DNA of 64,000 nucleotides, taken from NCBI RefSeq assembly GCF_009909615.1, contig NZ_WWNE01000012.1, positions 1 to 64,000 on the forward strand. The letters run 5' to 3'. The position numbers and the translations under genes were made by a program. Shown in pieces: positions 8,311 through 36,529 of this stretch. The stretch's first letter is position 1. Each line of letters starts with the position of its first letter. Origin of the DNA: Acidiluteibacter ferrifornacis (GTDB taxonomy: Bacteria > Bacteroidota > Bacteroidia > Flavobacteriales_E > Vicingaceae). The notes beneath the pieces are model-generated. The model was not told the DNA's origin. It did no database searches and saw only the letters and a list, made by a program, of their open reading frames with translations.

Positions 8311-8359
8311 TGTCTCTTTTCAAATGTCACGTCCTAAAATACGGCTACTGATTTAAGGA

Positions 8360-9220
8360 TTAATTTAAGTTTAAATTGTGCACCATATCAGGTGTATTAA
8401 AATTTAAAGATAAGTGCATTCTTTTGTTGTTATAAATTTTGATAGCATTTTTCACTGCTCTTTTAGCATGTTCAAGGTTGGTAAAGCATTCATCAAGATA
8501 AAACTCTCCTTTTAAAATGCCGTTAACTCGTTCGGCAACAGCGTTTTCGTAGCAGTGATTTTCTTCGGTCATACTTATCAGCATGTTCTTTTGTTTTAGG
8601 GCTTTTACGTATAGATTACTACAATATTGAATACCTCTATCGGAGTGGTGTATTGTACCACTTTTAATCCGGGATTGCCTCTGGGCCTTTTGGAGGGCCC
8701 TGAGGCATCCCTTGAGTTCGAGGGAATCGCTAATGTCATAGCCAATGATTTTACGAGAATACAAGTCTGTAATTAAAGCTAAATAACAAAAGCCTTTCAC
8801 TGTTCTGATGTAAGTTATATCAGAGACCCAAACTTGATTAGGTTTTATGATTTCTAAGTCTTTTATCAAGTTATTGTATTTGTAAAATCGATGGAAAGAG
8901 TCTGTAGTTTTATGATTAGGTTTTTTACGTCTAATCAACATTTTCCTCTCTCGTAATAAGTTAAATAAAGCGTCTCGTCCGAACTTAATACCTTTCTTGC
9001 TTAGAGGATCTTTGATGGTTTTAATTAACTTTCTTGTTCCAATTCTCGGTTGCACAGAACGCTCTTGTTTTACAAACTCAATAATTAAGCTATGCTGTGC
9101 CTGCTTTTTATTGAATCGGTTCAAGTATTTATAATGCGCATCACGGTGTATGCCAAAGAGCTCGCAAGTTGCTTTGGTAGAAGCAAGCCCTGTTGTTTTA
9201 TTATGTTGTATTGCTTTCAT
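8360..9220 (-). CDS. IS3-family transposase OrfB (DDE integrase domain)
   Basis: This 286-residue catalytic subunit carries an HTH_21-like region at about 40-100 and an rve integrase core with a DD35E triad: Asp134 in VSDITY, Asp194 in HHSDRGIQY and Glu230 in ENAVAERVNG. It is full length and probably active. The OrfA stop and OrfB start overlap as TAATG at 9220-9222. That suggests stop-start coupling rather than the A6G slippage common in the family, and I see no slippery run at the junction. Confidence 0.96.
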   Translation of the reverse strand: MKAIQHNKTTGLASTKATCELFGIHRDAHYKYLNRFNKKQAQHSLIIEFVKQERSVQPRIGTRKLIKTIKDPLSKKGIKFGRDALFNLLRERKMLIRRKKPNHKTTDSFHRFYKYNNLIKDLEIIKPNQVWVSDITYIRTVKGFCYLALITDLYSRKIIGYDISDSLELKGCLRALQKAQRQSRIKSGTIHHSDRGIQYCSNLYVKALKQKNMLISMTEENHCYENAVAERVNGILKGEFYLDECFTNLEHAKRAVKNAIKIYNNKRMHLSLNFNTPDMVHNLNLN

Positions 9221-9615
9221 TAGGGCTTTATGTTTAGATTTTTTTTTAACTCTTCCACATTTTTATAGCCCAAGTTTTCAGCGGCTACTTCAAGATAAGA
9301 ATCGCTAACAAGCTTTTCCATATCTTTTCTGATCAGCAACTCTTTGAGTTGTTCAATCTCTTTTTTCAGAGCTCTTAATCGGCTTACTTCATCTTGATTT
9401 TCCACGAGTATACGAGTGTTCATTAGGTCTTTACGGTCATACTTTCTTATCCATTCGTTAATGGTAGAAGAGTTAATACCATAAAGTTTTGCAAGTTGTG
9501 CTTTGGAGCATTGTCCTTGGCTAAGTTCGTTTAAAACTTTGAGTTTGAAACTCTCGCTGTACCGTCTTACGGTCTTGTCATTTTTATACATATCTACATG
9601 TTTAAGTGTAGACAT
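9220..9615 (-). CDS. IS3-family transposase OrfA
   Basis: This 131-residue DNA-binding subunit has a helix-turn-helix at about 17-55 (YSESFKLKVLNEL ... QLAKLYGINSSTINEWIRKY), followed by a leucine-zipper-like coiled coil (VSRLRALKKEIEQLKELL, about 77-95). The coiled coil multimerises OrfA/OrfAB. Its start lies 17 nt inside the right end of the IS. Confidence 0.93.
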   Translation of the reverse strand: MSTLKHVDMYKNDKTVRRYSESFKLKVLNELSQGQCSKAQLAKLYGINSSTINEWIRKYDRKDLMNTRILVENQDEVSRLRALKKEIEQLKELLIRKDMEKLVSDSYLEVAAENLGYKNVEELKKNLNIKP

Positions 9616-9638
9616 ATTTTAGGACGGGTCAAAATGGG

Positions 9639-9770
9639 TGCCAACGGTTTCGGGTATGAAACGTAGGGCATTTTACGCCCTAACTGTTCAGTTTAGCACC
9701 GTCCTTTGTTTTATGTTTATAGTTTCGTTCATCACTTCCGCCCCAATTGTTTATAGCCATTGTTAGTGGC
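9639..9770 (-). other. attC-like recombination site of cassette A4
   Basis: On the minus strand the site opens with GCCACTAAC|AATGG and closes with AAACCGTTGGCA. The outer arms GGCTATAAACAATTGGGGC and GCCCTACGTTTCATACC pair imperfectly around a central unpaired region. Its first core is complementary to the start of cassette A4 (GTTAGTGGC, 9 bp). Its last core GTTGGCA begins the IS-interrupted fifth cassette. Confidence 0.75.
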
Positions 9771-9789
9771 TGCCCATTTTGCTTTTTGC

Positions 9790-10767
9790 TTATTTGTTAA
9801 ACCATTGAATAATTTTTTCGATAACCATTTTCCAACCGTCTGTTTCGGGTTTATCTAAAATGTTAAAAGAATGGTCAGCATTTTCGATAAGTTTTAATTC
9901 TACGTTTTTTCCTTTCGTTAGTAAAATCGTATAAGCAATTGTTGCTGATTCGGGATACACTGCTCTATCAGCAGTTCCTTGAAGAATTAAAATTTTCCCA
10001 TTATAGTTTGATAGTTCATCAATAACAGAAGTTTGTAAAAGGCTTGACCAACGTAAATAGGTAAAACCCCAAAATTTCTTTTCTGTATTTGTTGGGTCAG
10101 CTAAAATATTGTTCCATTTTTCCTTGACATAGTTTATTCTTTCTTCCGATGTTGACATATTATGCTCTTTTGTATTGAAAAAAGTTCCATCGTCAGCAAA
10201 TTTGTATAAACTATAAAGTTGTGAAGGACCTTCTCCTGCCATAATTGCAACATTGGATATTTTGTCTTTCATTAAATTTGCAACTCTTGATGCGACAACG
10301 CCTCCTTCCGAGTGTCCAGCCAATAAAATCTTGTCTTTATCTATTTTTTCATTTTGTGTAACATAATCTATTGCATTTACAATTGTGTTACTCCAACTTT
10401 CAAGCGAAAATTTATGGTCAAAAGATTTAGATTCTCCTTTTTGCAAATATTTGATTCCTGGTTTTTCGACAATTAAAACTCTGTATTTTTCTTGCCCAAC
10501 ACTAAACCAAGGCATTTGTCCGGAAGTCGAAACAATTTGTCCGTTTCGGTTCTCAAAAAATGAATTCATTCCCGAACCTTGAACATAAATAATTAATGGC
10601 AAATTTTCTTTATGAGAAGTTACAGAAAGATAAAATGTGATTGTGTCTTTGTCTGTTTTAAGTTCGTATTTGTCATACGGTTGATTGGATAAGAATTCAA
10701 TTTTCGCTTTTTGTGCTAATATTGAATTAGTTAGAAGTAAAAGAAAAATTATTATCTTGAATTTCAT
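9790..10767 (-). CDS. Secreted alpha/beta hydrolase (cassette A4)
   Basis: This 325-residue protein has a signal peptide (about 1-19, ...LTNSILAQ) and an alpha/beta-hydrolase fold. The oxyanion region is YVQGSG (61-66), the nucleophile elbow GHSEGG has Ser153, ILQGTADRAVYP carries the likely acid Asp, and the His is in ADHSFN. It resembles dienelactone-hydrolase/BAAT-type or prolyl-oligopeptidase-like esterases. The substrate is unknown. It is the only gene of its cassette, starting 36 nt after the cassette boundary, and it ends 20 nt before the A4 attC-like site. Confidence 0.85.
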   Translation of the reverse strand: MKFKIIIFLLLLTNSILAQKAKIEFLSNQPYDKYELKTDKDTITFYLSVTSHKENLPLIIYVQGSGMNSFFENRNGQIVSTSGQMPWFSVGQEKYRVLIVEKPGIKYLQKGESKSFDHKFSLESWSNTIVNAIDYVTQNEKIDKDKILLAGHSEGGVVASRVANLMKDKISNVAIMAGEGPSQLYSLYKFADDGTFFNTKEHNMSTSEERINYVKEKWNNILADPTNTEKKFWGFTYLRWSSLLQTSVIDELSNYNGKILILQGTADRAVYPESATIAYTILLTKGKNVELKLIENADHSFNILDKPETDGWKMVIEKIIQWFNK

Positions 10768-10796
10768 TTTTATGCGTTTGTTTTGTCTTGGGTTGC

Positions 10797-10992
10797 CACT
10801 AACGACCCGGCTAAGAAACGTAGGGGAGTTTGAAACACTGCTCTTTCAGTTTACCACTTAGCCAAGCCAAATATTTTTATAATTTACTTTTCTTTTTTCA
10901 TTATCAAAATTTTGGATTGGCGGACATTCTAGAAGCTCTGAACTTCCGAAAACCACTGAACCCCTATGTTTTCTTAGCCCATGTTGTATGCC
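10797..10992 (-). other. attC-like recombination site of cassette A3
   Basis: This is a 196-bp imperfect palindrome. On the minus strand it opens GGCATACAAC|ATGGGC and closes CGGGTCGTTAGTG. The arms GGGCTAAGAAAACATAGGGG and CCCCTACGTTTCTTAGCC pair with one bulge. The first core is complementary to the start of cassette A3 (GTTGTATGCC, 10 bp). A 72-codon plus-strand frame here (10830-11048) is a by-product of the palindrome, not a gene. Confidence 0.78.
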
Positions 10993-11044
10993 GTGTCTTT
11001 GTTTTTCGTAGCAAACAGCTTCTGTGTATAGAGTCTGTAATGGT

Positions 11045-11716
11045 TTAGTTTAGATTTATCCATAAATGAATCAACTTCAAATCATCGGTCTTTCTTAGTG
11101 CAATAGATTCTAAAAAACAGTATTCGACATTTGATTCTATTTCAGATAGTGATTCATCTGCTGACCAAGACTTGTTTGTTAATGCTATATCTGTAATCCA
11201 TTTGTTGATTTTAGTTAGCCATTGCTTTGGATTGTCTTTTTCGATATAGCCAAGTAAGCCACAATCATTTAATCCTTTACCGTGTTTCTCTGTTTTATAC
11301 CTTTCAATACCCCCATTGTTATATATCCCATAAACATATTCTTTTTCTCTTGCAGCTTCAGGTGCTGGCAGTCTTTTGCATTCTACAGAAAAAATAGAAG
11401 TGTTTGAAATACCTTGTTCATTTGGATAAAAATAAAAGTCAGAATAACCTTTACTAAGATTGTATATATCTCTATACTGGCTGCTAATATTAAAAGGATA
11501 GTCTTGCTGTCTGATTAAAATTTGTGCTTGCTCAATATAAATTTGAGTCAATTCGTCTTCGTTAAGTTTTTTCTTTTTATGATACCCTGATGCAATATAT
11601 GCTTTGAAGTGAGGAACATTTTGTTTCATTGATTCAATAATCAATGAAATCACATTAGTTTTCGAAATACTGATTTTCGGTTGTTCAAAGTTTGAAAAAT
11701 TCTCCTCCGCTATCAT
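11045..11716 (-). CDS. Nuclease-like partner of the adenine methyltransferase (cassette A3)
   Basis: This 223-residue cytoplasmic protein of no family I can name has a PD-(D/E)XK-like pattern: GYSDFYFY (about 89-96), then SIFSVECKRL with the E-x-K pair. Its start overlaps the end of the methyltransferase gene by 4 nt (ATGA, 11713-11716), so the two are translationally coupled. The likely role is the restriction subunit, or an accessory nuclease, of a two-gene restriction-modification or BREX-like defence unit. Specificity cannot be read from sequence. Confidence 0.65.
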   Translation of the reverse strand: MIAEENFSNFEQPKISISKTNVISLIIESMKQNVPHFKAYIASGYHKKKKLNEDELTQIYIEQAQILIRQQDYPFNISSQYRDIYNLSKGYSDFYFYPNEQGISNTSIFSVECKRLPAPEAAREKEYVYGIYNNGGIERYKTEKHGKGLNDCGLLGYIEKDNPKQWLTKINKWITDIALTNKSWSADESLSEIESNVEYCFLESIALRKTDDLKLIHLWINLN

Positions 11717-14637
11717 AGTTGAATTTGATTAGAAAAGTCAGAGAAACATTTATCAGCATCACGATAGGCTATTAAGGAAAGCCAATATCTGTATTGATTT
11801 GGCTTTATAAAGACAATAGTGTCTTTTTGAGGATACAATTTGATTATTCGCTTAACCGAAAGGTGGGCTGAAATTTCATTATTGGTTAGTCCGTCAATAT
11901 TTAGTTTTGTAAAGTCTTTATGAAACAAAGGTTCTTTATCTTTATTGTCATATTTGAAAACTGTAGCAATTAATGATGTTCCATCAAGTTGAACAATATC
12001 TGACAATCTGAATTTTTTCCCTTTGCTTTCATAAACAGAATTTAATGCTCTTGAAAATTCATCTCCGTAATTTGAAAGCACAGATTCTATCTTATTTTGT
12101 CTTACAGGCTTTAATATTTGTGCATTTTCACCATTTCTGATAAAGGACTGATAATAATTATTTACATCAGAAATAATTTTTAAGTCAAATACTGAAAACA
12201 ACTTCTTTCTATTTTTATTTAACAGAAACGGAAGTTTCATATAATCAATCTTAAGTAATGAAGTGTTTCGATTAATTAATAGATAGCTACTTGTAACATA
12301 CATATAGAACCTATAGAAGTCACTATTGCCTTCGAACTCATTTACAATCTCTTTTAACAGTTCTGTGTTAGAGGATTTAATTCCTGTTATTTGATGTCTA
12401 AAACTGAAGCTCTTTTCGTTATAAAAAACAGGTAATTTATTTACCCCTACGTTCTCCCATAGCAATACATTTGGGGCGATGAACAAGTCATTTTTCGGAA
12501 CTTTAACAAATGAAAGGTTATTACCTAATTTTACTATTTGGCTGTAGTCGATACCATTTTCACTGATTGCTTCGGTTGGTAAAAATGGTATTTCATCTAA
12601 AAAAGCTGGTCTTAACTTACCAGTAGAGCCAATCAATCCTTCCTCAACTATACAATCGTTATTCCTTAAAAAACTTTCAAATTTTTCTGTTGTAATTACT
12701 TTTTCTACGAGGTTTTTAATTCGACCACCACCTAAGAGATTATTTTTCCAAATAAACTCACTATTGATAGCTGTTTGTCTATTTACAAAATGCAAATCAT
12801 ATTCGTCTATTTCAAATACGATTCGCTCTTTAGTTGCTTTAGTTCGTCTAAATGTAAGGTGAAGGATATTCTTAGATACATCAGGTTTATTGTTTCTAAC
12901 AAAAATTGCTGCTGTTGCTACATCAGCACCATTATCCCACAATGATTTATTTCTCGCTAAAGCTGTGAAATCTAATAATTGAACAACATTATAATTTGAA
13001 AATAATGCTTTTTTGTAAGTAATAGAGGTGCTATTATAAAGTAGCCCTGACGATTTAATGATTAGACAAACCAAACCATTTTCCTTTAACATTGGAAATG
13101 ATTCAGAAAGAAATTTTAACGCTATTTGACCTTGTGGTATTTTTACTTTTTTATCATTTACCAACCAAGTATTAGAATATTCTGAAATCGCACCTCTAAC
13201 AAATGGAGGATTTCCGATTATCAAATCAAATTTTTTGTTTTGGATATTCCTCAAAACAAAAAAGTCTGAATGAACTAGATTCTCTTTTGTTAAGTCATCA
13301 AACCTTAATTTATTGATTACTTCAATTGGCTTTAGCTCGTTGCATAATGCTAAGCTCAAACTAAACGAGGACAACATTACGGCTTGCTCTTCCTTATCTA
13401 CTCCGTAAATGTTTCGCAATATTTTTTTGAGGTCATCAACATTTGGCTTGTCTAATTTATGTTGCAATCTCCATATTTGAACCAAACGCTTAAATGCAGT
13501 TACTAAAAAAATACCTGAACCGCAAGCGGGGTCAAGTATTCTAAAATTAGCTAAGTCAATTTCCTTGTATTTTTTTAAAGGCAAGCATTCATCCACTAGG
13601 AGTTTTGCCAAATGAGAAGGAGTATAAAATAATCCTTTGTCTTTCTTATTCTCGCCTAAAAACTCTTCATAAAGTCGGCTAATTAATTCAACAGGAATAT
13701 ATTTAAACTCAAAATACCTCCAATCGGGAAAGCCTATTTCAAGTTGTAATGCTTCAATACTGATTTTGTCTGTTGCAAGTAATTTGGCAACAATACTAAG
13801 GTCTAATGATTCTAATTGCTCTTGTTCTGTTGTTTCCCATTTAAAAACATTCCCATTGAAGTTTTTATTAAGGTCATTAAGCAAATTACTAAACTTGCCT
13901 TTTATTAATACATCACTAAATGAATTTGAATTGTTGTATTTTTTGAAATATTTTTCAGTTAGAAGCTTTTTGCCTTCGTCATCCGATGTTTCTTCTAAGT
14001 ATTTGATGAGAATCGATTGAACAATAATTTTATTAATAAGCTCTCTTGGGGCTTTTTTCAGTTCCTTTGAAAGCCTCTCAATAACTTTTCTGATATTCTG
14101 AATAAGAGTATCATAAGCAGAATTTTTGAAATTAAATTTTCCTTTTATTTCTTCTTGTTCCCAAAATATTCCGCTTTTTATTTTTACAGCAAATTGCTCG
14201 TTATATAGCCTATGAGCTTCATCAACTAGTCTTAATTTGTCTGTTAAATATTCTGGTTTTAAGTCTTTTGTAAGATGCTTTGTGCAATCGATTATTTTTA
14301 TTTCAGTATTAAAAAAGAAACATGCCAAAGGAACTTCACCGCTACTCCAAATTTTCCTTTGTATGTCTGCAATTTCATTTTCTATTTGCTCAGAAAATGC
14401 CCTATCAGTAAAGTCGAATAAATAAACTTGTGGCTTGTAACTTCCATTTAACTGCTTTCTTAAAAAAATTGCAGTGATTTCTTTATGAATGAACTTTGCA
14501 GTTTCAATGTGAAAAGCAATTTCTGGTTCAGCTAGTTGTTTTTTTTCGTCTGTAAAATAAAGAGCATTATCTCCCTGAAAACCAAGCTTCTCTAAGCCTG
14601 ATTTGAAAGATTCCGATGTCCCTTTAATTTTATCCAT
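11713..14637 (-). CDS. N6-adenine DNA methyltransferase, Eco57I/type IIG-like (cassette A3)
   Basis: This 974-residue protein methylates adenine in DNA. SAM-binding motif I LDPACGSGIFLV is at about 367-378 and catalytic motif IV NPPF is near 474. Residues 1-340 form a long N-terminal region without an obvious nuclease motif. The C-terminal half (about 640-974) resembles a TaqI/Eco57I-type target-recognition region. The size and layout match Eco57I-like or PglX-like enzymes. The coupled downstream gene supplies a possible nuclease. Upstream within the cassette (14638-14795) is about 155 nt with TAACTTTA, a weak -7 candidate near the start. Confidence 0.88.
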   Translation of the reverse strand: MDKIKGTSESFKSGLEKLGFQGDNALYFTDEKKQLAEPEIAFHIETAKFIHKEITAIFLRKQLNGSYKPQVYLFDFTDRAFSEQIENEIADIQRKIWSSGEVPLACFFFNTEIKIIDCTKHLTKDLKPEYLTDKLRLVDEAHRLYNEQFAVKIKSGIFWEQEEIKGKFNFKNSAYDTLIQNIRKVIERLSKELKKAPRELINKIIVQSILIKYLEETSDDEGKKLLTEKYFKKYNNSNSFSDVLIKGKFSNLLNDLNKNFNGNVFKWETTEQEQLESLDLSIVAKLLATDKISIEALQLEIGFPDWRYFEFKYIPVELISRLYEEFLGENKKDKGLFYTPSHLAKLLVDECLPLKKYKEIDLANFRILDPACGSGIFLVTAFKRLVQIWRLQHKLDKPNVDDLKKILRNIYGVDKEEQAVMLSSFSLSLALCNELKPIEVINKLRFDDLTKENLVHSDFFVLRNIQNKKFDLIIGNPPFVRGAISEYSNTWLVNDKKVKIPQGQIALKFLSESFPMLKENGLVCLIIKSSGLLYNSTSITYKKALFSNYNVVQLLDFTALARNKSLWDNGADVATAAIFVRNNKPDVSKNILHLTFRRTKATKERIVFEIDEYDLHFVNRQTAINSEFIWKNNLLGGGRIKNLVEKVITTEKFESFLRNNDCIVEEGLIGSTGKLRPAFLDEIPFLPTEAISENGIDYSQIVKLGNNLSFVKVPKNDLFIAPNVLLWENVGVNKLPVFYNEKSFSFRHQITGIKSSNTELLKEIVNEFEGNSDFYRFYMYVTSSYLLINRNTSLLKIDYMKLPFLLNKNRKKLFSVFDLKIISDVNNYYQSFIRNGENAQILKPVRQNKIESVLSNYGDEFSRALNSVYESKGKKFRLSDIVQLDGTSLIATVFKYDNKDKEPLFHKDFTKLNIDGLTNNEISAHLSVKRIIKLYPQKDTIVFIKPNQYRYWLSLIAYRDADKCFSDFSNQIQL

Positions 14638-14788
14638 TATCTATTTTAATCAATCGTAAAGTTACGAAATTGAACCTCCTAAAATGCATAAGTTTGCCAC
14701 TATTTAAAAGTGTTTATTTGAAAACAATTGGTTTAACGATTAATTATGATAGCTAAAAACAAAATGGTTATCTGTCTTTCATCATGGC

Positions 14789-14910
14789 ATACAACGCCTT
14801 GACTATGAAATGTAGCCGCAAGCAGTGTCGGTTAAATTTAGCACTAAAGGTAATCAAACCTTTACCAAACGTTTACTGCGGCTATATTTTATAGTTTTTG
14901 TTGTAAAGCG
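14789..14910 (-). other. attC-like recombination site of cassette A2
   Basis: On the minus strand it opens CGCTTTACAAC|AAAAAC and closes AAGGCGTTGTAT. The arms TATAAAATATAGCCGCAGT and ACTGCTTGCGGCTACATTT pair imperfectly. An internal AAAGGTTTGATTACCTTT hairpin forms the tip. The first core is complementary to the start of cassette A2 (GTTGTAAAGC, 10 bp). Confidence 0.78.
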
Positions 14911-14918
14911 TTTTTTAT

Positions 14919-15329
14919 TTAATAGTTGACTTTACAAACTGCAATAGTCTTTCTGTCTGACAAAAGATAGAGGTAATAGATTTTATCAAATTTATTCTCC
15001 GTGATTAATGATTTGGACATATTGATAATGTCTAGATCATTCTTGTAGATATAGTCATTCAATTCAAGATTAAAGTAGAATGTGCCTTCTTCAAATCGGT
15101 CATTTTTCAAAATTGAGCTTTCCAAGTTTTGAAAATCTATGCTGTCCATCTTAAAGAGGCTGTATTCACCCATTGGTTCTAAAAAGCCATTTTCTTTTCC
15201 TGATTGAATTAAAGTCAGTTCATAGTTTCTACCAAACTCAGCCATTTCGTTTAAATCATCGAAAAGTTCTGTCTCCGATTGACAACTGATAAATAAAGTT
15301 GTGGCTAATATGAAGAGAAGTCGATTCAT
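14919..15329 (-). CDS. Small lipoprotein (cassette A2)
   Basis: This 136-residue protein has a lipoprotein signal (MNRLLFILATTLFISC, lipobox Cys16) and no recognisable domain. It starts 17 nt after the cassette boundary and ends 9 nt before its attC-like site, so it fills the smallest cassette of the array. The function is unknown. Confidence 0.8.
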   Translation of the reverse strand: MNRLLFILATTLFISCQSETELFDDLNEMAEFGRNYELTLIQSGKENGFLEPMGEYSLFKMDSIDFQNLESSILKNDRFEEGTFYFNLELNDYIYKNDLDIINMSKSLITENKFDKIYYLYLLSDRKTIAVCKVNY

Positions 15330-15339
15330 TTTGAATGCT

Positions 15340-15473
15340 TTACAACGGTCTAGTGTATGAGCAGTAGCGGATTAAAAAGCACTTACTTTCAGCCAAGCAC
15401 TGAACTTTGATTGACAAGAATACTTTCCTTTTTATCACTAAACCCGCTATTGCTTATACACAATGTTACATGC
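15340..15473 (-). other. attC-like recombination site of cassette A1
   Basis: On the minus strand it opens GCATGTAAC|ATTGTG and closes TAGACCGTTGTAA. The arms GTGTATAAGCAATAGCGGGT and CCGCTACTGCTCATACAC pair well. The first core is complementary to the start of cassette A1 (GTTACATGC, 9 bp). The methyltransferase reading frame runs into the site and stops inside it at 15389. Confidence 0.8.
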
Positions 15474-16846
15474 TGGCTTTCTTTCTTTTCTTTCGTATTA
15501 CTCTTGTTTTCGCCTTTACTTATTATTGTCATTAGATACTCCAATTCCGAATTCATTTTCATGTTGCGTTCTTCTTTTCGTCTCAAGATACCTGCACAAG
15601 CTTTGGCACTCAAATAAAATTTGTCAAGAGCATGATTTGGTTCAACAATGTCTTTTAAATCACCATAAATGGGATTATTTGGAATGTTTGAAGAGTTTAA
15701 AAATTCAGTTTGGCTAATTTGGTTTGTTCCTTCTAATAGATATAGTAATGCGTTGTTATTATTTTTCTTTGGTTGAACTGCTTTTTGCCATTCAGTAAAT
15801 TCATTCTTGGTTTTTTTATCCATAAACTCACTTATTTTACTGCCAATCCACTTAACAACTGGAACAGCCCAAGAATTACCAACCGCTTGAAATCTATTAG
15901 TATGGCTATTTCCATTTACTTTTGTATAGTTGTCAGGAAAACCCATTAGCCTTTCACACTCTAAAGGTGTGAATCTTCTAATTTTATCATTTTCTGCAAC
16001 GTACAAAGAACCATTATATGCTGCGGCATTTCCGTTCCATTTCGTTCCATAAGCTGCATATAAACAATCCGTATATTCTCTAAATACTTGGAATTTTGAA
16101 CCTCCTTTATGAAAAACATTTTCGTCTTTTTCTTCAGGAAGATTTGGTGAAAATAAGTCAGGAAGATTTGAAGCAGATTTTTTAGCCTTTAATTTTATTT
16201 CTTTTACAATGTCCTTATTATCGAATTCAAACAATACTTGGTCAGGTTTGAAGTCTTTACCGCCTGCAAGGACATATAATCTTTTTCTTTGGTGTGGAAG
16301 TCCAAAATATTTAGCGTCTATTACTCTCCATGCAACATTTCTGTCTTTTCCTTCCAAATAGCCTGACTTTGTCCATTTACCAATTTTGATTTCTTCATCA
16401 AAACCTGCCAAACCTGCAATGAAATTCCCAAATGCATTTGTTCTATCGTTAAGCACTCCTTCAACATTTTCCCACAAAACAATACTTTTCTCTTTTCTGT
16501 CTTCAAGTCTTATTTTATCGATTGCGTTTGCAATTTCGATAAAGGTCATTGTTAATTGTCCTCTTTCGTCAGCAAGTCCATTTTTCCATCCTGCTAATGA
16601 AAAAGCTTGGCAAGGTGTACCGCCACAAAAAATGTCAGGTGCTTCAAATTCACGATTAAGAATTGAATTTGGAATATTTATCATATCGCCAACATTTGGT
16701 ATATCAGGAAAATGGTGTTCAAGAACCTTTGAAGGAAACTCTGCAATTTCTGAACTCCATAATTGTTTAAACCCATAGGGGGAAAAAGCCAATTGAGAGG
16801 CTTCAATACCTGAACAAACGCTACCAAATGTTATATCTTTACCCAT
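15389..16846 (-). CDS. C5-cytosine DNA methyltransferase (cassette A1)
   Basis: This 485-residue Dcm-type enzyme methylates cytosine at C5. It has motif I VCSGIEASQ (10-18), motif IV GGTPCQAFS with catalytic Cys79, motif VI ENV (126-128), motif VIII RKRLYVLA and motif X GNSWAVPV. The last ~28 residues (ESQHVTLCISNSG...) are encoded by the first half of the cassette's own attC-like palindrome. The native C-terminus may therefore have been extended by loss of a stop. It is the third gene of a C-R-M unit, 58 nt after the endonuclease gene, with a C-box half-site in that gap. Confidence 0.95.
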   Translation of the reverse strand: MGKDITFGSVCSGIEASQLAFSPYGFKQLWSSEIAEFPSKVLEHHFPDIPNVGDMINIPNSILNREFEAPDIFCGGTPCQAFSLAGWKNGLADERGQLTMTFIEIANAIDKIRLEDRKEKSIVLWENVEGVLNDRTNAFGNFIAGLAGFDEEIKIGKWTKSGYLEGKDRNVAWRVIDAKYFGLPHQRKRLYVLAGGKDFKPDQVLFEFDNKDIVKEIKLKAKKSASNLPDLFSPNLPEEKDENVFHKGGSKFQVFREYTDCLYAAYGTKWNGNAAAYNGSLYVAENDKIRRFTPLECERLMGFPDNYTKVNGNSHTNRFQAVGNSWAVPVVKWIGSKISEFMDKKTKNEFTEWQKAVQPKKNNNNALLYLLEGTNQISQTEFLNSSNIPNNPIYGDLKDIVEPNHALDKFYLSAKACAGILRRKEERNMKMNSELEYLMTIISKGENKSNTKEKKESQHVTLCISNSGFSDKKESILVNQSSVLG

Positions 16847-16888
16847 AATAATATCTTAATCTGATACAAAGCTATAAAAAAAATGATA

Positions 16889-16896
16889 ACTTTAGT
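16889..16896. promoter_or_regulatory. C-protein operator half-site before the methyltransferase
   Basis: ACTTTAGT followed by AT repeats the right half of the operator at 18054-18061. It lies in the 58-nt gap before the methyltransferase start. The preceding bases (ACAAAGCTA) also echo the operator spacer. This suggests that the controller also acts on methyltransferase expression. Confidence 0.5.
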
Positions 16897-16904
16897 ATGC
16901 AAAA

Positions 16905-17807
16905 TTATAGTTTCTCGTTTAATTTTTCTTTCCAAAGTTCCAAATCGTACCAAGGACAACCAACGCAACCATTTTCGTCATTTTCAGTTTTTCCATTCCA
17001 ATTTTCGTCTCCTTGGTAATACCATTTTGTACCCATAAAATCTCCTCGCTTTCCTGTTTTTACACAAGTATCACAGTATCTTGATTTCCACATATTAGTT
17101 TGGTTACTCAGCAATTGAAATTTCTTACGAATTTCAGTCTCTGGCATATCATCTGGATTCGCAGATTCTTTTGTTATCCATCTTTGAGAAGGGAATTTAT
17201 GGTCAATAATCAATTCAACAGAAGTTCTTTTTACATTAAAACAAACTTCTTTTTTACCTAATACTTTTTTGATTCGTTCTTTAAGCTTTTCGGACATAGA
17301 AGCTCGTAACTCGTTTCCATCTTCAAACTTTGATTGAATTTTAGGAAGCATGACTAAAATATCATGCATGGTTTTTTTTGAACATGAAGAACATTGTCTC
17401 CTTTTAGAGCCAATTATATAGCCTTGTTTCTTAAGGGCTCCCAAACGAGCAGCTGGTTGTGGATTTTCTGCTGGAACTGGACCACAAACTCGACATTCCC
17501 AATTTCCTGAATACAATGCACGTAGAACCTTGTAAGTTTGAGTTTGTTTTTGTGAAGCAGACCAAAGTAAATCACTTTCATTAATCCATTTTTGTCTATT
17601 ATCGGGGTTTAAGATATTGTATGATTCCTCAACAGAATTGTAGAAATCTTCTTCCGTTAAATCTAAACCTTGAAATTTTAAAAATTTAGGAAGTAATCCT
17701 TGCCATGTTTGAGTTTTATACTCAAACTCTACTTCCATGAATACATCACTTGTTTTTTCTGCAATAAAAAACTCGTCTGCTAATTTGTACTTTTTATTCT
17801 TTGCCAT
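16905..17807 (-). CDS. HNH-type restriction endonuclease (cassette A1)
   Basis: This 300-residue protein lies between a controller gene and a C5-methyltransferase, the position of the endonuclease. It carries an HNH-like core: IDHKFPSQRW (201-210) with His203, then SNQTNMWKSRYC with Asn235 and Asn238. Cysteine pairs C105/C108, C139/C142, C245/C248 and GCVGC near 283-286 could bind two structural zincs. The recognition site is unknown but must match that of the methyltransferase. It overlaps the controller gene by 14 nt. Confidence 0.8.
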   Translation of the reverse strand: MAKNKKYKLADEFFIAEKTSDVFMEVEFEYKTQTWQGLLPKFLKFQGLDLTEEDFYNSVEESYNILNPDNRQKWINESDLLWSASQKQTQTYKVLRALYSGNWECRVCGPVPAENPQPAARLGALKKQGYIIGSKRRQCSSCSKKTMHDILVMLPKIQSKFEDGNELRASMSEKLKERIKKVLGKKEVCFNVKRTSVELIIDHKFPSQRWITKESANPDDMPETEIRKKFQLLSNQTNMWKSRYCDTCVKTGKRGDFMGTKWYYQGDENWNGKTENDENGCVGCPWYDLELWKEKLNEKL

Positions 17808-18027
17808 TGCTAAATTTTAGTAAGTCCTCAATTTTGACTTCTAAAGCATTAGCAATTTTCTCAATATTTACGAGAGTAATGTTTTTTTCTGCTCTCTCAA
17901 TCATTCCAATATAGGTTCTGTGAAGGTCGGCTTTATGAGCCAATTCTTCTTGCGAAATGTTGAGTAAGCGTCTGTATTTTCTAACGTTTTCTCCGAATAA
18001 ATTTAATATTTCGTGTTTAGATTCCAT
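17794..18027 (-). CDS. XRE-family controller protein of the restriction-modification system
   Basis: This 77-residue protein is a single helix-turn-helix domain: FGENVRKYRRLLNISQEELAHKADLHRTYIGMIERAEKN, with helices 2-3 at about 25-45. Its size and position before an endonuclease gene match C proteins, which delay endonuclease synthesis until methylation is complete. An inverted repeat 6 nt upstream of its start is the likely operator. It is the first gene of cassette A1. Confidence 0.9.
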   Translation of the reverse strand: MESKHEILNLFGENVRKYRRLLNISQEELAHKADLHRTYIGMIERAEKNITLVNIEKIANALEVKIEDLLKFSNGKE

Positions 18028-18032
18028 TGCTA

Positions 18033-18061
18033 ACTAAAGTCTGCACAAAGCTAACTTTAGT
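18033..18061. promoter_or_regulatory. Likely C-box operator
   Basis: ACTAAAGT (18033-18040) and its exact reverse complement ACTTTAGT (18054-18061) are separated by 13 nt, just upstream of the controller start at 18027. A third half-site before the methyltransferase supports a role in autoregulation. Confidence 0.6.
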
Positions 18062-18120
18062 ATTCAAATCCTACCACAGACTATAATTAGCATTTTCGGT
18101 TGTTTTAGCTTGCATGTAAC

Positions 18121-18350
18121 AAGTGGATATGACGCACTCTGTGCGTCATATTCATATTTTAAAATGTTAATTTTTTATTTCAATAAAACTACTAATTGTT
18201 TTAAAATCAAGCACAAAAACGTTTATTAGTCGTTTGTTGTCGTTTAAAAACGGATAAATGGTGGTTTTCATTTAGCAATAGTTTTTTCTAATCCCGAAGA
18301 TAAATGAATTTTTCGAATAAATGTTGGAGTTGGTGTGAAAATTAGAAGGT
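18121..18350 (-). repeat. Cassette-array leader, copy 1 (attI-like candidate)
   Basis: This segment of about 230 bp is repeated at 36530-36753 with small differences, including a 10-bp length change between two CGTTT repeats. Next to the array is a perfect hairpin, 18127-18151 (11-bp arms ATATGACGCAC/GTGCGTCATAT, loop TCT). The junction to the first cassette reads CCACTT|GTTACAT on the minus strand. The remaining 18351-18592 is AT-rich and I see no gene in it. By position it would be the insertion site (attI equivalent) and possibly the source of a promoter. Both roles are inference. Confidence 0.75.
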
Positions 18351-18592
18351 TATATCATTTGTGGAGAAGGAAAGGGGGGGAATGCTTTGGTGTATGAATA
18401 TGTTCCCTACTAATTCTTTAGGTTGATTTTTTTACATTTTAAATTAATAATGAATGGAGGTGAGAAATATTCACAAGGTTTCAAATGGAGATGGCGAAAC
18501 TTAAGGTATAGTTGCTCTATATCTAAAATATTGGTTTTTAGACGAATTAGCCGATAGTTCATATTTTAAATACAACCTTTAATCGCGTCTAA

Positions 18593-20056
18593 TTATTCTG
18601 TTCCAATGTGTTTCTCGTAAAATTTCCAAACCTCTTTTGCAATATCACGACCCAATTCAAGCCCTGCTACATTATCAGCTTGAATGTGGTAACCACCCAA
18701 CACTCTGGAAATTCCCGCCATTTCAGCAGTTTCTGTAAAAGTAGGAAACTCCAAGGTTACCTTTTCTCCCAAATAATCTGGTTCTGTCAATGCTCCTGCC
18801 ACTAATTCGGCAGTAGAACCAAATTCGTCACTGCCGGTCCACATTTTTAAGGCTTCACCGCATCCACCACTAATGGTGCTATGTCCGGAAACATAACTTG
18901 GAAATGGGGGACATAAAAACGTTTCCGGGGAATAAGGTCTCCAATATTTTCCCTCCATTTCAATCATTCCTTTTCCTTCTCCTCCCCATGCTTTTATTTT
19001 TTGGTTTCCGTAGTATTGATGAACCAAAGCGTAAGGTCTAGCATAATCGTAATGCATCTTGGAATCCCATGAGGCGATAAAAGCATCCATCGCTACCACT
19101 TGATTATAGAAGTACATTTTTACATCTTGGTCTAAAGTGTGATCATCTCTAATTGACACTTCTTGTGCAAATTTTAACCAATGTCCAGCTTGCTGCACCG
19201 ATTGAGGTCCGTCTCGCATGAATTCAACCAACGCTTTTTGATAATCAGTTAAATTGGCTTGCATTTCAATGACTTCTTTAACCTCTTGCTCCAACTGTTC
19301 TGAACCGATCATTGGGGGAGGACCAGGTCTAAATTGGTCTCCTGATTTTAAGGCAATCGGTTTTACTTTGTCCCAAAAAGGAGTCAAACAACCAGGTGCG
19401 AATTTTCCTCCTTTTCCATCTGCAAAATATTTGGGCTGCCAACGATTTGGATCGACATTGGTATCAGCAGAATTAATTGGTTCATAACCTGAATAATCAG
19501 CATAAGATTCTCCGTTGGATCCTTCTTCTTCGCCATATTGATTGGCTCCATCTCCCTTTCGAGCCTCAATGACAGCTTTAGCGGCTAAATTGCCAATCCC
19601 TTCGGGTGTGTTTGGGTCTAGGCTCTCGTTGTGTGGGTCTAAGCCTAGTTTTTTCATAAAATCCTCAAATACTTCCTTATCGGAGTAGTAATACTCATTC
19701 ATTGCTCTAAATGCGGCATAGCTGATAGCTATTTCTTTGTTGGTCAGTAGTTGCTCTTCATTTGGTCTCCTGTCCACATTTTGCAGATAAACTGGTATCG
19801 CTTTTTCATCGTATCTCGACCAAGCATCAAATACCGCAACAAAAATTAAAGCTAAATAACGTGAAGTTATAGTGGGTCTGGGCTTGAAGCGCTCGGTGTC
19901 ATTTGCGGTAGTAGTTAAGGCCATTTCACCCCATTGGTATGCAATGTTGTTTGCTCCTGAAGGTTCTGAGACCACCTTGTCTGTGTTGGGTTTACTGGTT
20001 GGCTGACAACCAATAGAAAGCATTGTGATGAGTAGGATGAAGTAGATTTTGTACAT
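18593..20056 (-). CDS. Vanadium-dependent haloperoxidase/PAP2-like lipoprotein
   Basis: This 487-residue protein has a lipoprotein signal (lipobox LSIGC, Cys17) and the three vanadate/phosphate-binding motifs of this family: KMHYDYARP (near 327-335), PSYVSGHSTISGG (near 388-400) and SRVLGGYHIQAD (near 450-461). Members oxidise halides with hydrogen peroxide or act as acid phosphatases, and sequence alone does not separate the two. It is exported and lipid-anchored. It is the last ordinary gene before array A. Confidence 0.9.
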   Translation of the reverse strand: MYKIYFILLITMLSIGCQPTSKPNTDKVVSEPSGANNIAYQWGEMALTTTANDTERFKPRPTITSRYLALIFVAVFDAWSRYDEKAIPVYLQNVDRRPNEEQLLTNKEIAISYAAFRAMNEYYYSDKEVFEDFMKKLGLDPHNESLDPNTPEGIGNLAAKAVIEARKGDGANQYGEEEGSNGESYADYSGYEPINSADTNVDPNRWQPKYFADGKGGKFAPGCLTPFWDKVKPIALKSGDQFRPGPPPMIGSEQLEQEVKEVIEMQANLTDYQKALVEFMRDGPQSVQQAGHWLKFAQEVSIRDDHTLDQDVKMYFYNQVVAMDAFIASWDSKMHYDYARPYALVHQYYGNQKIKAWGGEGKGMIEMEGKYWRPYSPETFLCPPFPSYVSGHSTISGGCGEALKMWTGSDEFGSTAELVAGALTEPDYLGEKVTLEFPTFTETAEMAGISRVLGGYHIQADNVAGLELGRDIAKEVWKFYEKHIGTE

Positions 20057-32567: not shown

Positions 32568-32594
32568 GTGCAACGGTTACCATTGTTGGGCACA
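32568..32594 (-). other. Shortened attC-like site of cassette B2
   Basis: On the minus strand the whole site is TGTGCCCAAC|AATGG joined to TAACCGTTGCAC. The outer ends match those of the A4 site (AACAATGG and AACCGTTG), with the central palindrome missing. The first core is complementary to the start of B2 (GTTGGGCACA). A deletion of the arms would lock the cassette in place. Confidence 0.6.
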
Positions 32595-32598
32595 GTTT

Positions 32599-35124
32599 TT
32601 AACTCGTTTTTTTATAATATTTCTCGCTATACTCTTTTTTTAAAGAGTCAACATCTAGTTTGTGTGCATTTAAAAACTCTTGAACTTTTTCATCTGAAAG
32701 CGAGTCAATTTCATATTTATTGAACTCCTTAAAAAATGCCTTCACATTACTTCTCAGAGATTTCAATTTCCCCCTTTTCATAATTTCAACTTTATGAGTG
32801 AAATCCGCGTGATAGGACAAGTTTTTTGTTGGAATAACTAGCACTCTTTTTACTTCAGAATCTCCGTACTGACTTTCAAACCAAGCACAATGAGTATTCA
32901 TCTGTCCTGCCTCATGCTTATTAATCTCTTGACGCTCAACATTTACTTCACTTTTGCATTCGAAAATGAAGTATTGATTACTCACACCGCACCAAAGATT
33001 ATCAGGACCTTTTTTAAACTCTTTATCTGGTCTTTCGCTAAGAAATCCAAGCATTATACCCAACTCTTGTAAAGCACCTTCAAATTTTTCGGCTGAAGTA
33101 CCAAACTCTAAATCCGCTAGAATACCTTCAACAGTTAGCATTAACTCTTCAAAGTTTTTGAAACTTTTGATGTGAGCTATAATTCGTTGAATTCTATTTT
33201 CGTTAATAAAATCAAGTTTCTTGTAGGTAATACCTTCACTTGGTTTTAATAATTCATGATTCTTTAAAAATGCGGCCTTTTGTAAATTATTTGAATCAAC
33301 TTTGCTCTGTAAATACTTATATCTAGCCATTAACTGTAAATACCAACCTTTTTCACTTTCATCACTGCAATGATTGTCGACAATTTGTTGAACAATTGAA
33401 CTAGCCTTTTCGTAGTCGCCTGCATAATTTTGTTCTGCAGCTTTTCTTTCTAAGAGCAATGTGTCATAAATAACACTCGTTCCTGCTGTTGAAGTAATTT
33501 TATCCATCTCTTCTTTATAAAATTCCTTCCAACCTTCATCTCTTTGAAGCGATTGCTTCATCAATGATTTCAGAGCGTCCATTGGTTGATTTTTATCAGA
33601 TAGCTCATCGACAGCCATTTCTGCTATATTCAAACCAATTTCAATCTGCTTTTGTGTTTGAGACGAAAAGTATTTGTTGGTTCTTGAGCTTTTTATGAAT
33701 TTCACCAAGTCAGCACCAATGACAAAAATTATACAGTAGTCTTTCTCTCCCCGAACACTTCTTCCTAAACCTTGCTCTACTTTTTGAGCAATCTTTATGT
33801 TTATTGAGTCACTACCCATTCGATTTGATTCTTCATACCTGTCAGACAGAGAATAGAAGAAAGGTCTCCCATCGACTACTAAAATTCGGCAAGTTTCATC
33901 AGGTAAATCAATGCCATCATATCTATTCGCAAATACAACTGTTTGTTTGAAATTCCCTTTTTTTAAGTGATCGACAAATGCACCGACCTGATCAGAGGTT
34001 GGAATTAAAGCTCCAAGTGAATTATAAATTTCAGCTTTGCCGAATGAAGAAACCAATGAAACAACGCCATAATTTTTGTCTGAAGGTTTGGCGAGCGAAT
34101 TAACCATACTTACTCTATCTAGACTATCGTCAATTAATGAGGGGATAAGCAGCATTTTTTCACCTGACCAAACCTGAGTTGGATTGTCCAATGGATTCTT
34201 TACAGCTTCAACATCAAACCCTAATCCTTTAATGAAAAATGAATCATCTTGTGTTGTTGCAGACATTAAAATTCTTTGACTAGCTCTATGGAAGGTTGCG
34301 AATTTCTCAATAGGAATGTGAATAGGAGTAATCTCAATATTCCTACCTGAAATAAAAGCTTGACAATTCTTGATATTATCTTTTACAAACGGCCATGCAA
34401 ACATTATTTGGCTTTCATCTCTGCATTGAGAAATGATTTGTAATACTTCTTCCGACTTATCAATCCAATTCCAATAAGGAATTGGCAAAAAGGAATTATA
34501 ATCACCATTTTCAATTTCCAAAAATGTTCCTTCTCCTTGTTCAGGTAAAGCATCTTTAAAGAGCTCAAAAATTTCTTTGTAGACTTGGTGTTCTTTGTCA
34601 AGGTTGATGGTAAATGTATCCTTGATTGAATCAATGCAGGCGTGTGAGTCATCAAGAATTACATTCTCGACATGTGTGTAATCATTTCCTAAACCAAAAA
34701 TGGTTTTTCCATTAAAAACCTTTTGAACATGCGTGATTAGAATTTTTTTTCCATCTATGAAATCATTGGGTAGAGTATTGTCTGGCTCTATTGAGCAATA
34801 GCTTATTCCAAATTTCTTGGCATCTCTTCTTACCTGTTGAACTAAATACTTATTTGGACAAACGAATAAACATGGGCCTTTCTGAGCGTTAATTTTGGAT
34901 TGAAGAATCAAAAGACCAATTAAAGTCTTTCCTTCTCCTGTGTGCAATTTTACAATGAGGTCTTTATCATCTTTTCTGCTTTCATACCACTCAGTCAGTA
35001 TCTTTTCTTGAGCTGGACGAAGAGGTCCGGCAATACTTCTTCTATCCAAAGAATCATAAAGTTCAACTGGGTTAGTTTTCTTTACAATTTCAGTCTTACT
35101 AAGTCTTTTCTTGAAGTCTACCAT
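32599..35124 (-). CDS. DEAD-like helicase fused to a PD-(D/E)XK nuclease-like domain (cassette B2)
   Basis: This 841-residue SF2 helicase has motif I HTGEGKT (61-67), an unusual motif II DDSH (158-161) and motif VI QGLGRSVRGE (near 445-455), with helicase domains spanning roughly 35-480. A helical middle follows. Near residue 720, FIFECKSEV with a preceding Trp-rich stretch looks like a restriction-endonuclease-like E-x-K core. Single-gene helicase-nuclease fusions are typical of anti-phage defence. The gene fills its cassette. The exact defence type is not recognised. Confidence 0.8.
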   Translation of the reverse strand: MVDFKKRLSKTEIVKKTNPVELYDSLDRRSIAGPLRPAQEKILTEWYESRKDDKDLIVKLHTGEGKTLIGLLILQSKINAQKGPCLFVCPNKYLVQQVRRDAKKFGISYCSIEPDNTLPNDFIDGKKILITHVQKVFNGKTIFGLGNDYTHVENVILDDSHACIDSIKDTFTINLDKEHQVYKEIFELFKDALPEQGEGTFLEIENGDYNSFLPIPYWNWIDKSEEVLQIISQCRDESQIMFAWPFVKDNIKNCQAFISGRNIEITPIHIPIEKFATFHRASQRILMSATTQDDSFFIKGLGFDVEAVKNPLDNPTQVWSGEKMLLIPSLIDDSLDRVSMVNSLAKPSDKNYGVVSLVSSFGKAEIYNSLGALIPTSDQVGAFVDHLKKGNFKQTVVFANRYDGIDLPDETCRILVVDGRPFFYSLSDRYEESNRMGSDSINIKIAQKVEQGLGRSVRGEKDYCIIFVIGADLVKFIKSSRTNKYFSSQTQKQIEIGLNIAEMAVDELSDKNQPMDALKSLMKQSLQRDEGWKEFYKEEMDKITSTAGTSVIYDTLLLERKAAEQNYAGDYEKASSIVQQIVDNHCSDESEKGWYLQLMARYKYLQSKVDSNNLQKAAFLKNHELLKPSEGITYKKLDFINENRIQRIIAHIKSFKNFEELMLTVEGILADLEFGTSAEKFEGALQELGIMLGFLSERPDKEFKKGPDNLWCGVSNQYFIFECKSEVNVERQEINKHEAGQMNTHCAWFESQYGDSEVKRVLVIPTKNLSYHADFTHKVEIMKRGKLKSLRSNVKAFFKEFNKYEIDSLSDEKVQEFLNAHKLDVDSLKKEYSEKYYKKTS

Positions 35125-35143
35125 TATGTTTTATTTTAATTGT

Positions 35144-35341
35144 GCCCAACGCCCAAATATGTTGCGTAGTGAGTTAAGTAAAGATACAATTTGCTAAAAA
35201 CTAATTAGTAAAAATCGCAATGCGATTTTGTACATTTTCTTTTTCTACAGAATTCGCTTGCGAATTTTACGGAGTATCAAAGAGTAAATAAACTTTCTTA
35301 ACCTACTGACTCACTATGCACTATATTTAATGTTGTGTGTA
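35144..35341 (-). other. attC-like recombination site of cassette B1
   Basis: This is a 198-bp imperfect palindrome. On the minus strand it opens TACACACAAC|ATTAA and closes TTTGGGCGTTGGGC. The arms AAATATAGTGCATAGTGAGT and ACTCACTACGCAACATATTT pair well. The central part holds two further small hairpins (TTCGCAAGCGAA; ATCGCATTGCGAT). The first core is complementary to the B1 cassette start (GTTGTGTGTA). Confidence 0.8.
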
Positions 35342-35350
35342 GTTATTTCT

Positions 35351-35977
35351 TTAGATTTGCTCTTTTACAGACTTTATCATGTATACAACGGCACTTCGAT
35401 TTTTATCAAATGAATTAACAACTTTCTGAAGACTTATTGCATAGCTTGGTAACAATTTTTCAATCTCAGCCCAATAAAAATCAGCCATCTGTTGATTATT
35501 TTCGTTTAAATAGTCATTATAAGTTTTTGACAATAATTCTATTTCATTGTCTTTGAATTTTGTTTCAGCTATATTTTCAATAAAGTCAGAAATGTCTTGT
35601 TCATTCCATTCTTTGGAATCGTCTAATTCAAAGTAAAGATTAGCGGTGTTAGCTTCTAAGTGACTTTCTTTTAATAATATGTCAAGGTTTTTTGAATTAA
35701 CATTTAATATATTCTGAATTATATTAATGTCTAAGTCTTTACCCTCATTAATTCCATTTAGAATTATCTCATATGATTTTTTCATTTCCACTATATTTTT
35801 TAGATATGTGGAGTAGAAGCTAACAGCTTTTTCTGCTACTTCAAGTTTTCTCGTAAATTTTAATTTTGTTATATCTCTTTTATAATCTGACCACTTATTT
35901 ATTTGATTGAAAATCTCTTTTATGAACAAGGTTATTAATGAGCCTGTCAATATTCCTATAACTGTATTTTCATCCAT
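35351..35977 (-). CDS. Membrane-anchored coiled-coil protein, unknown (cassette B1)
   Basis: This 208-residue protein has one N-terminal hydrophobic segment (about 4-20, TVIGILTGSLITLFI) followed by a long, mostly helical, charged region with coiled-coil character. No family recognised. It starts directly at the stop of the preceding gene (35978), so the pair is translationally coupled. It is the second gene of a two-gene cassette in an array of defence-like cargo. A role in defence is only a guess. Confidence 0.72.
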   Translation of the reverse strand: MDENTVIGILTGSLITLFIKEIFNQINKWSDYKRDITKLKFTRKLEVAEKAVSFYSTYLKNIVEMKKSYEIILNGINEGKDLDINIIQNILNVNSKNLDILLKESHLEANTANLYFELDDSKEWNEQDISDFIENIAETKFKDNEIELLSKTYNDYLNENNQQMADFYWAEIEKLLPSYAISLQKVVNSFDKNRSAVVYMIKSVKEQI

Positions 35978-36505: not shown

Positions 36506-36529
36506 TAATAATTTTGAATTACACACAAC

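Follow-up and report, generated by a model that had tools for sequence, protein, structure and literature searches.

A Cassette Array in Acidiluteibacter ferrifornacis That Looks Like an Integron and Is Probably Paired with a Tyrosine Recombinase Other Than IntI

Introduction

Can a row of gene cassettes that has no integrase beside it belong to a complete integron-like system, and which recombinase would then run it? The question is raised by positions 9639-18120 of contig NZ_WWNE01000012.1 of Acidiluteibacter ferrifornacis, a member of the Bacteroidota. There, in a stretch of 64,000 nucleotides that we call the window, four cassettes on the minus strand are separated by palindromes resembling the attC sites of integrons. 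An original prediction, made from the letters of the window, had described the region as an integron-like cassette array without an integrase. We put the probability at roughly 0.8 that it is one of 13 dispersed integron-like arrays of a cassette system run by a different tyrosine recombinase. From its sequence, the system looks like an integron and probably works like one, paired with a recombinase other than IntI. The cassette boundaries, the covarying hairpins, the leader, the linkage to a recombinase and the homology breakpoints at GTT can all be read directly in the DNA, and they are taken up in that order below.

Cassettes and Their Boundaries

All the boundaries predicted for the four cassettes were correct to the base. 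The start of each cassette is the complement of its own 3' site, exactly and in four of four cases, as had been claimed (Table 1). Insertion or excision of circles between the G and the TT of a GTT would leave just such a start box repeated in the outer box of the cassette's own site. The rule extends well beyond the window. With cassettes taken as the stretches between consecutive sites in many loci, 65 of 78 share their leading 9-10 bases with the outer box of their own site, against about 1% for mismatched pairs. The 13 cassettes off the rule comprise two that share 8 bases, two that share 7, two that share 4 and seven that share GTT only; for several of them the gap is long and a site could have been overlooked. 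The general form of a cassette is a start at GTTRRRY and an end in a hairpin site that repeats the cassette's own first 9-10 bases. The integron-like character of the array is therefore backed by this junction rule and the four exact pairs in the window, and also by the covariation and the breakpoints described below.

Two details of the original prediction stand in part. Site lengths had been given as 122-196 bp; measured from AAC to GTT they are 124, 110, 185 and ~122 bp, which comes near that range once the outer boxes are added. The cargo had been called mostly restriction-modification and other accessory genes. Restriction-modification genes make up two of the four cassettes, one carries a hydrolase and one a protein without a match, so "mostly" was generous.

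ORF-less mini-cassettes lie between gene cassettes in two other loci, built on a 91-nt palindrome occurring five times (L180:4360-16816) and an 80-nt palindrome occurring four times (L188:6824-13727). A 170-bp cassette start common to several genera was considered as a further ORF-less mini-cassette and rejected; it is the open coding start of a gene family, presumably DUF6090.

Covarying Hairpin Sites

The description of the separating palindromes as attC-like is borne out by their structure. When 28 sites were aligned, with the consensus structure taken from one member, 97.4% of the cells of that structure were paired. Cells changed on both sides numbered 141, against 44.7 in shuffles, with none of 500 shuffles reaching the observed count, and 14-22 when the structure was slid by 1-3 columns. 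Covariation was 0.640, against 0.150 for the shuffled and 0.048-0.104 for the slid alignments. Since a structure taken from one member tilts the slid control towards itself, the count of two-sided changes is the safer figure. Only 13 of the 219 columns are invariant; what is kept is the pairing and not the sequence.

A covariance model trained on the 28 sites recovers the four sites of the array at 64-101 bits, all on the plus strand, in a scan of the window; the minus strand gives one weak match of 22 bits. Three of the four array sites are in the training alignment. The site of the last cassette (9639-9769) lies outside it, as does a fifth site at 35144-35339 that was absent from the original prediction. 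In the host genome as a whole, 40 sites reach E 0.01 or better with covariance model R1.

A Leader Shared with a Recombinase

The first cassette is preceded by a leader resembling the attI site of integrons, with a core whose minus-strand GTT is the expected crossover point. The leader palindrome, allowing up to two mismatches, occurs in 13 copies in the genome, and a reversed-pattern control in none. The flanking context is identical in kind for all 13 copies. One of them comes immediately after the stop codon of a 382-aa tyrosine recombinase (contig C14) and immediately before a long cassette row. Of the 40 model sites, 39 have a leader within 17 kb, lie to its cassette side and share its orientation; only a weak site on contig C11 does not. 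The phrase "no integrase" is thus right for the array itself, but a recombinase with the same leader elsewhere in the genome heads a longer array. The check proposed with the original prediction, a search of the genome for intI or for another tyrosine recombinase with this leader, returned no intI above the cut-off, and it returned the tyrosine recombinase. Since the leader also adjoins the recombinase, the window array is a satellite of a complete system and not an orphan.

One satellite preserves a trace of how it may have formed. On contig C15 (L045:5615-5680), 22 codons from the C-terminal end of a recombinase remain beside the leader, with 73% identity to the intact enzyme. They suggest loss of the recombinase gene as one way for a satellite to form. 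The attI-like stretch also recurs outside this genome: the start box of the first cassette is found between the recombinase stop codon and the first site in 28 of 31 loci, mostly over ~30-250 bp. In the recombinase's own clade (our own locus with L056, L057, L062, L064, L070, L085 and L086), the stretch is 35-64 bp long and contains an inverted repeat of varying sequence, which stops a few bases before the crossover.

As a repeat, the leader is dispersed through the genome with a ~45-bp core and, in most copies, ~230 bp more, and this extended part may hold the promoter of the array. We considered whether the palindrome is a mere terminator or dispersed repeat, and rejected this as a full account, as a cassette box precedes it in 13 of 13 copies and sites are beside it in 13 of 13. 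Site direction is uniform within each of contigs C9, C14, C15 and C18. Pooled GC skew agrees with site direction on C9, C14, C15 and, less clearly, C18, runs against it on C20 (one site) and is about zero on C11, a pattern suggestive of a replication-strand bias of the sites.

The Recombinase

The recombinase on C14 is the single full-length gene of its kind found in the host genome and contains Phage_integrase and SAM-like domains. It falls below the cut-off of every profile that it approaches: 210 bits for XerA_Arch (cut-off 220), 193.2 for IntI (cut-off 265, in two stretches) and 191 for XerD (cut-off 329.6). The genome encodes a separate XerD that is above the cut-off (L003). No match over the TIGR02249 cut-off for IntI is found in the host genome; below the cut-off, that profile also matches 14 of 14 control genomes. 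Positions 182-240 of the IntI profile are without a match in the recombinase. In the homologue L085, only 26 residues face residues 180-248 of IntI4 (69 residues), meaning that the IntI-specific insert (I2) is not present. The catalytic residues R235, K260, H324, R327, H350 and Y359 are conserved without exception in the aligned homologues (25 of 25). A quick tree of 144 rows places 16 IntI proteins in one clade (support 100) and 46 of 49 site-bearing recombinases in a separate clade of 92 rows (support 89); the other three are long-branched. On some relatives the NCBI label is "site-specific tyrosine recombinase/integron integrase", which is also the name of the XerA profile.

The predicted structure of L085 has a mean predicted local distance difference test score (pLDDT) of 85.9 and a predicted template modeling score (pTM) of 0.59. 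Residues 103-371 of the model match XerA at Z 24.4, IntI4 at Z 22.0 (rmsd 3.5, 258 residues aligned of 313) and XerH at Z 21.2. XerA thus gives both the best profile score and the best structure score. The recombinase differs from XerA, XerC, XerD and XerH in being tied to cassette arrays and not to one conserved dif-like site.

The extra N-terminal part is predicted to be a small alpha-beta fold (model of L107 residues 1-100, pLDDT 82.3). Its first Foldseek match is the HARP domain of SMARCAL1, at a weak E of 0.032. By VIA the best matches are the XPB DRD (Z 7.0) and UvsW (Z 6.7), which are likewise weak, with all Z below 8. The Pfam HARP model reaches at best 18.8 bits against the N-terminal part, under its gathering score of 25, with 3 of 32 members at E 1 or better, and it finds nothing in the window's own genome. 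Weak as they are, these are three lines that point to one class of domains, which binds forked DNA. In HARP, XPB-DRD and UvsW the domain belongs to DNA-remodelling helicases, whereas no helicase is attached to the recombinase here. A role for the HARP-like domain in reading the hairpin is possible, though weakly suggested. In some recombinases (L126, L136, L093 and L096) the N-terminal part is far longer, the whole protein reaching as much as 683 aa. A similar N-terminal part occurs in Saccharibacillus and Paenibacillus (L119, L123), with no sites found in the surrounding DNA examined. Relatives covering at least 94% of the query are found on plasmids of Persicobacter, Rufibacter, Phocaeicola and Chryseobacterium.

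Site Architecture Compared with IntI Loci

With the same scanner, 15 IntI loci of the phylum yielded 15 palindromes, each of the 15 having an extra base on the 3' arm and 12 of them two, typically after 6 and 12 pairs. This is the T-N6-G pattern of extrahelical bases known for attC (PMC3053210). Among 209 sites of the new kind, some of them repeated copies, 160 have no extra base in the first 16 stem steps and 20 have at least one on the 3' arm; both sets were scanned with a penalty on gaps. Instead, most of the new sites carry a polar G.T wobble. In 190 sites, a G.T pair is found at position 15 from GTT in 87% and at position 10 in 54%, and elsewhere in at most 14%. With transitions scored alike, A.C is never found at positions 10 and 15; position 6 is opposite in sign, with 12% A.C. 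The extra bases of IntI sites, read from the L228 sequences, are at positions 9 and 16. The stability of 189 of 209 stems favors the bottom strand, a biased figure in that the scanner favored G.T; a symmetric rescan gave 467 G.T against 66 A.C in 257 placements, which possibly overlap.

With covariance model R1, 16 IntI loci (306 kb) yield 4 sites and 16 recombinase loci (302 kb) yield 76, the latter loci having been picked for having sites. All four sites from the IntI loci are in L229 (genome G050), 4-7 kb from a true IntI gene, and that genome has a recombinase of the new kind elsewhere.

These comparisons bear on whether the array might be a CALIN, an attC cluster without an integrase as defined in a passage of PMC9024848, that is, a decayed IntI integron whose integrase was lost. 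The array does resemble one in being a local array with no adjacent integrase, genuine IntI is found in 84 of 296 genomes of the phylum, and the L229 sites lie near an IntI gene. Against this, the host genome has no IntI above the cut-off, the leader links the array to a non-IntI recombinase, the sites are built unlike those of the phylum's IntI loci and are rare in such loci, and across genomes the sites do not associate with IntI (see below). We consider this reading largely refuted and very unlikely.

Nor is the system itself an IntI-family integron, since the two features tested for, the IntI insert and extrahelical bases, are absent from the enzyme and from most of the sites, respectively; the lack of an IntI above the cut-off also speaks against membership in the IntI integrons as defined. 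With these integrons it shares cassettes inserted at GTT by an attI-like site that adjoins a tyrosine recombinase, hairpin sites that have AAC/GTT boxes and a spacer, identity between the cassette start and its own site, and the catalytic fold (IntI4, 2A3V). The differences are the missing insert and the added N-terminal domain of the recombinase, the wobble in place of extrahelical bases, an array that in the main type is 3' of the gene and co-oriented with it, and the 13 dispersed leaders in one genome.

Terminators or other intergenic RNA structures would also give palindromes that fold well between co-oriented genes, with the boxes arising by chance or gene conversion, and a covarying transcript would produce polar wobbles too. 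Transcripts, however, carry the top strand, where the wobble is A.C. The junction identities, the leader, the recombinase linkage and the GTT breakpoints would all be left unexplained. As a full account the RNA reading is refuted, and we give it almost no credence.

Improbable, but less so than either of these, is that the recombinase acts on double-stranded sites in the manner of Xer at dif, with the hairpin being incidental, for example a cruciform or a transcript structure. The enzyme resembles XerA as much as IntI and lacks I2, and the attI-like site is itself palindromic. Standing against this are the scarcity of invariant columns, while two-sided changes keep the pairing, and the polarity of the wobble, which at one position in 87% of sites is G.T on one strand and A.C on the other. 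A double-stranded site gives no reason for such polarity.

Homology Breakpoints at GTT

Recombinase ends and the downstream DNA were compared between loci, giving 22 pairs with at least 75% identity that reached the stop codon region. The alignment ends exactly at the GTT in 5 pairs and no more than 5 nt past it in 4. The clearest case involves two loci labelled as different genera (L074:8981-10694 and L075:8924-10637), which are 100% identical over 1714 bp ending exactly at GTT. Beyond it, the two carry unrelated first cassettes. A third locus, L076, is 91% identical to L075 over 11 kb and diverges at the same GTT. The 1714 identical bp hold two tRNA-like stretches (by eye), the recombinase and the attI-like site.

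Occurrence across Bacteroidota

When 33 recombinase loci of the family were scanned for AACG...GTTR palindromes, 25 sites came up, while the reversed sequence gave none. In 80 named loci among the collection matches listed, which come from at least 80 recombinase matches, the same scan found 73 sites, against 2 in each of two controls. Among the matches listed, loci with multiple sites occur in Winogradskyella ursingii, Algibacter onchidii, Zunongwangia mangrovi, Algoriphagus ornithinivorans, Flavobacterium aciduliphilum, Arundinibacter roseus and Rufibacter. The N-terminal part is present in 64 of 113 loci with a recombinase match. At these 64, 88 sites are downstream of the gene and co-oriented with it and 3 are elsewhere; such sites occur in 26 loci. 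A second layout (L180-L189) has a shorter recombinase of 272-330 aa, without the N-terminal part and divergent from the cassettes, which is the classical integron layout. Sites are so placed in 9 of 10 loci, these having been picked for that layout.

Sites are present, at E 0.001, in 45 of 46 genomes of the family, and a recombinase match starting before residue 40 in 29 of the 46 by row count. Among 296 genomes of the phylum, 131 have sites, 84 have IntI above the cut-off and 87, in a count transcribed by hand, have the recombinase at E 1e-85 or better, a threshold of our choosing. Ignoring kinship, the recombinase is found in 69 of 131 site-bearing genomes versus 18 of 165 without sites, and IntI in 30 of 131 versus 54 of 165.

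Proposed Mechanism and Points Against It

The core unit has three parts: the gene for the recombinase, an attI-like site that follows its stop codon at once, and the cassette row. The recombinase would recombine the attI-like leader with a cassette site folded on its bottom strand, between the G and the TT, and so insert or excise circles. At its own array it presumably acts in cis, and at the twelve satellites in trans. The bottom strand would be marked by the conserved G.T wobble and not by extrahelical bases; that capture proceeds on this folded strand is probable. We lean, with some reserve, towards the broader proposal that this is a second integron lineage: a clade of Bacteroidota tyrosine recombinases acting on folded single-stranded sites without I2 or extrahelical bases, in which G.T wobbles pick the strand (positions 10 and 15 versus the classical 9 and 16), most recombinases have a HARP-like fork-binding domain and many dispersed attI-like sites are served in trans by a single enzyme.

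Several points weigh against reading the array as part of a recombinase-driven cassette system. The case for cassette recombination is one made from sequence. The I2 helix of IntI is held to enable single-stranded DNA recombination (in a passage of PMC7790495), and the recombinase here is without it. In the 28-site alignment, pairs changed on both sides number 14 against 11.3 in shuffles (reached by 5 of 500) and further pair types 33 against 30.0 (matched by 63 of 500), both of them small excesses. Among the 22 compared pairs, 6 extend 11-21 nt beyond GTT and 7 end short of the site. The identity between L074 and L075 could be due to bin contamination instead of transfer; if it is a binning error, the breakpoint would be strain variation and carry the same message as transfer. 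No site was found in 38 of the 64 recombinase loci scanned, many of them on short contigs. Finally, 62 of 131 site-bearing genomes have no recombinase at the cut-off, and the association ignores phylogeny.

Other Features of the Window

The fifth hairpin site belongs to a second array (32585-36529), absent from the original prediction, with its own leader, found by the scan for the leader palindrome (Table 1). Its first cassette ends in that site. At the end of the probable second cassette, B2, no hairpin is recognised by the covariance model, and the site there is therefore decayed or unusual.

Table 1. Features of the two cassette arrays in the window. For hairpin sites, the strand is the folding (bottom) strand and bits are covariance model scores.
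Feature	Position	Strand	Remarks
Four-cassette array	9639-18120	-	Boundaries base-exact
Extended leader	18164-18390	-	~230 bp; from alignment of 13 leaders, alike in most copies, not all
attI-like leader core	18118-18163	-	First-cassette box AAC, palindrome TGACGCAC-TCT-GTGCGTCA, A/T-rich tail
Cassette A1	15344-18120	-	Type II restriction-modification set
A1 HTH protein	17794-18027		77 aa
A1 restriction enzyme	16905-17807		300 aa
A1 C5 cytosine methylase	15389-16846		485 aa
A1 hairpin site	15344-15467	+	100.9 bits
A1 start box / own-site box	18112-18120 / 15465-15473		GCATGTAAC / GTTACATGC, exact pair
Cassette A2	14793-15346	-	136-aa protein of no known family at 14919-15329
A2 hairpin site	14793-14902	+	73.7 bits
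A2 start box / own-site box	15337-15346 / 14900-14909		GCTTTACAAC / GTTGTAAAGC, exact pair
Cassette A3	10801-14795	-	974-aa type IIG restriction enzyme-methyltransferase at 11713-14637; 223-aa protein at 11045-11716
A3 hairpin site	10801-10985	+	86.8 bits
A3 start box / own-site box	14786-14795 / 10983-10992		GGCATACAAC / GTTGTATGCC, exact pair
Cassette A4	9643-10803	-	325-aa alpha/beta hydrolase at 9790-10767
A4 hairpin site with flanking boxes	9639-9769	+	64.1 bits; found by the model, overlooked by the initial palindrome scan
A4 start box / own-site box	10795-10803 / 9762-9770		GCCACTAAC / GTTAGTGGC, exact pair
Second attI-like leader core	36527-36572	-	From leader palindrome scan
Cassette B1	35148-36529	-	Two ORFs, 182 and 208 aa, no Pfam match
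B1 hairpin site	35148-35334	+	67.9 bits
B1 start box / own-site box	36520-36529 / 35332-35341		TACACACAAC / GTTGTGTGTA, matching
Probable cassette B2	32585-35150	-	841-aa helicase-like protein at 32599-35124
B2 boxes	35142-35150 / 32585-32593	- / +	GTTGGGCAC

An insertion element at 8325-9631, which has two transposase ORFs and imperfect inverted repeats of 24 bp, abuts the last site of the first array. At the other end, the leader is adjoined by a gene for a 487-aa protein with a DUF6851/VCPO domain (haloperoxidase-like, 18593-20056). When an empty site was looked for in close relatives, this gene was present in only 2 of 12 other genomes, neither of them in the genus. Phage-type tail sheath and T4 gp19-like tube genes at 313-2358 perhaps represent a contractile injection system or a prophage. 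The window contains no Rfam family at gathering scores and no tRNA gene was found in it.

Significance

No prior report of such a system in Bacteroidia was found in the open PMC literature, subscription papers and preprints being outside that scope. Integron surveys, according to passages of PMC9668308 and PMC9024848, require the IntI-specific domain, and a system like this one would therefore be invisible to them as an integron. If our reading is true, a large part of a very common environmental phylum owns a separate platform for capturing cassettes, and the cassettes opened here include complete restriction-modification sets. Integrases are said, in part of PMC7790495, to have gained single-strand recombination through docking of extrahelical bases by the I2 helix. 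A related enzyme with neither I2 nor extrahelical bases would represent another route to single-strand recombination, and it would offer a natural comparison for the origin of strand choice and junction resolution.

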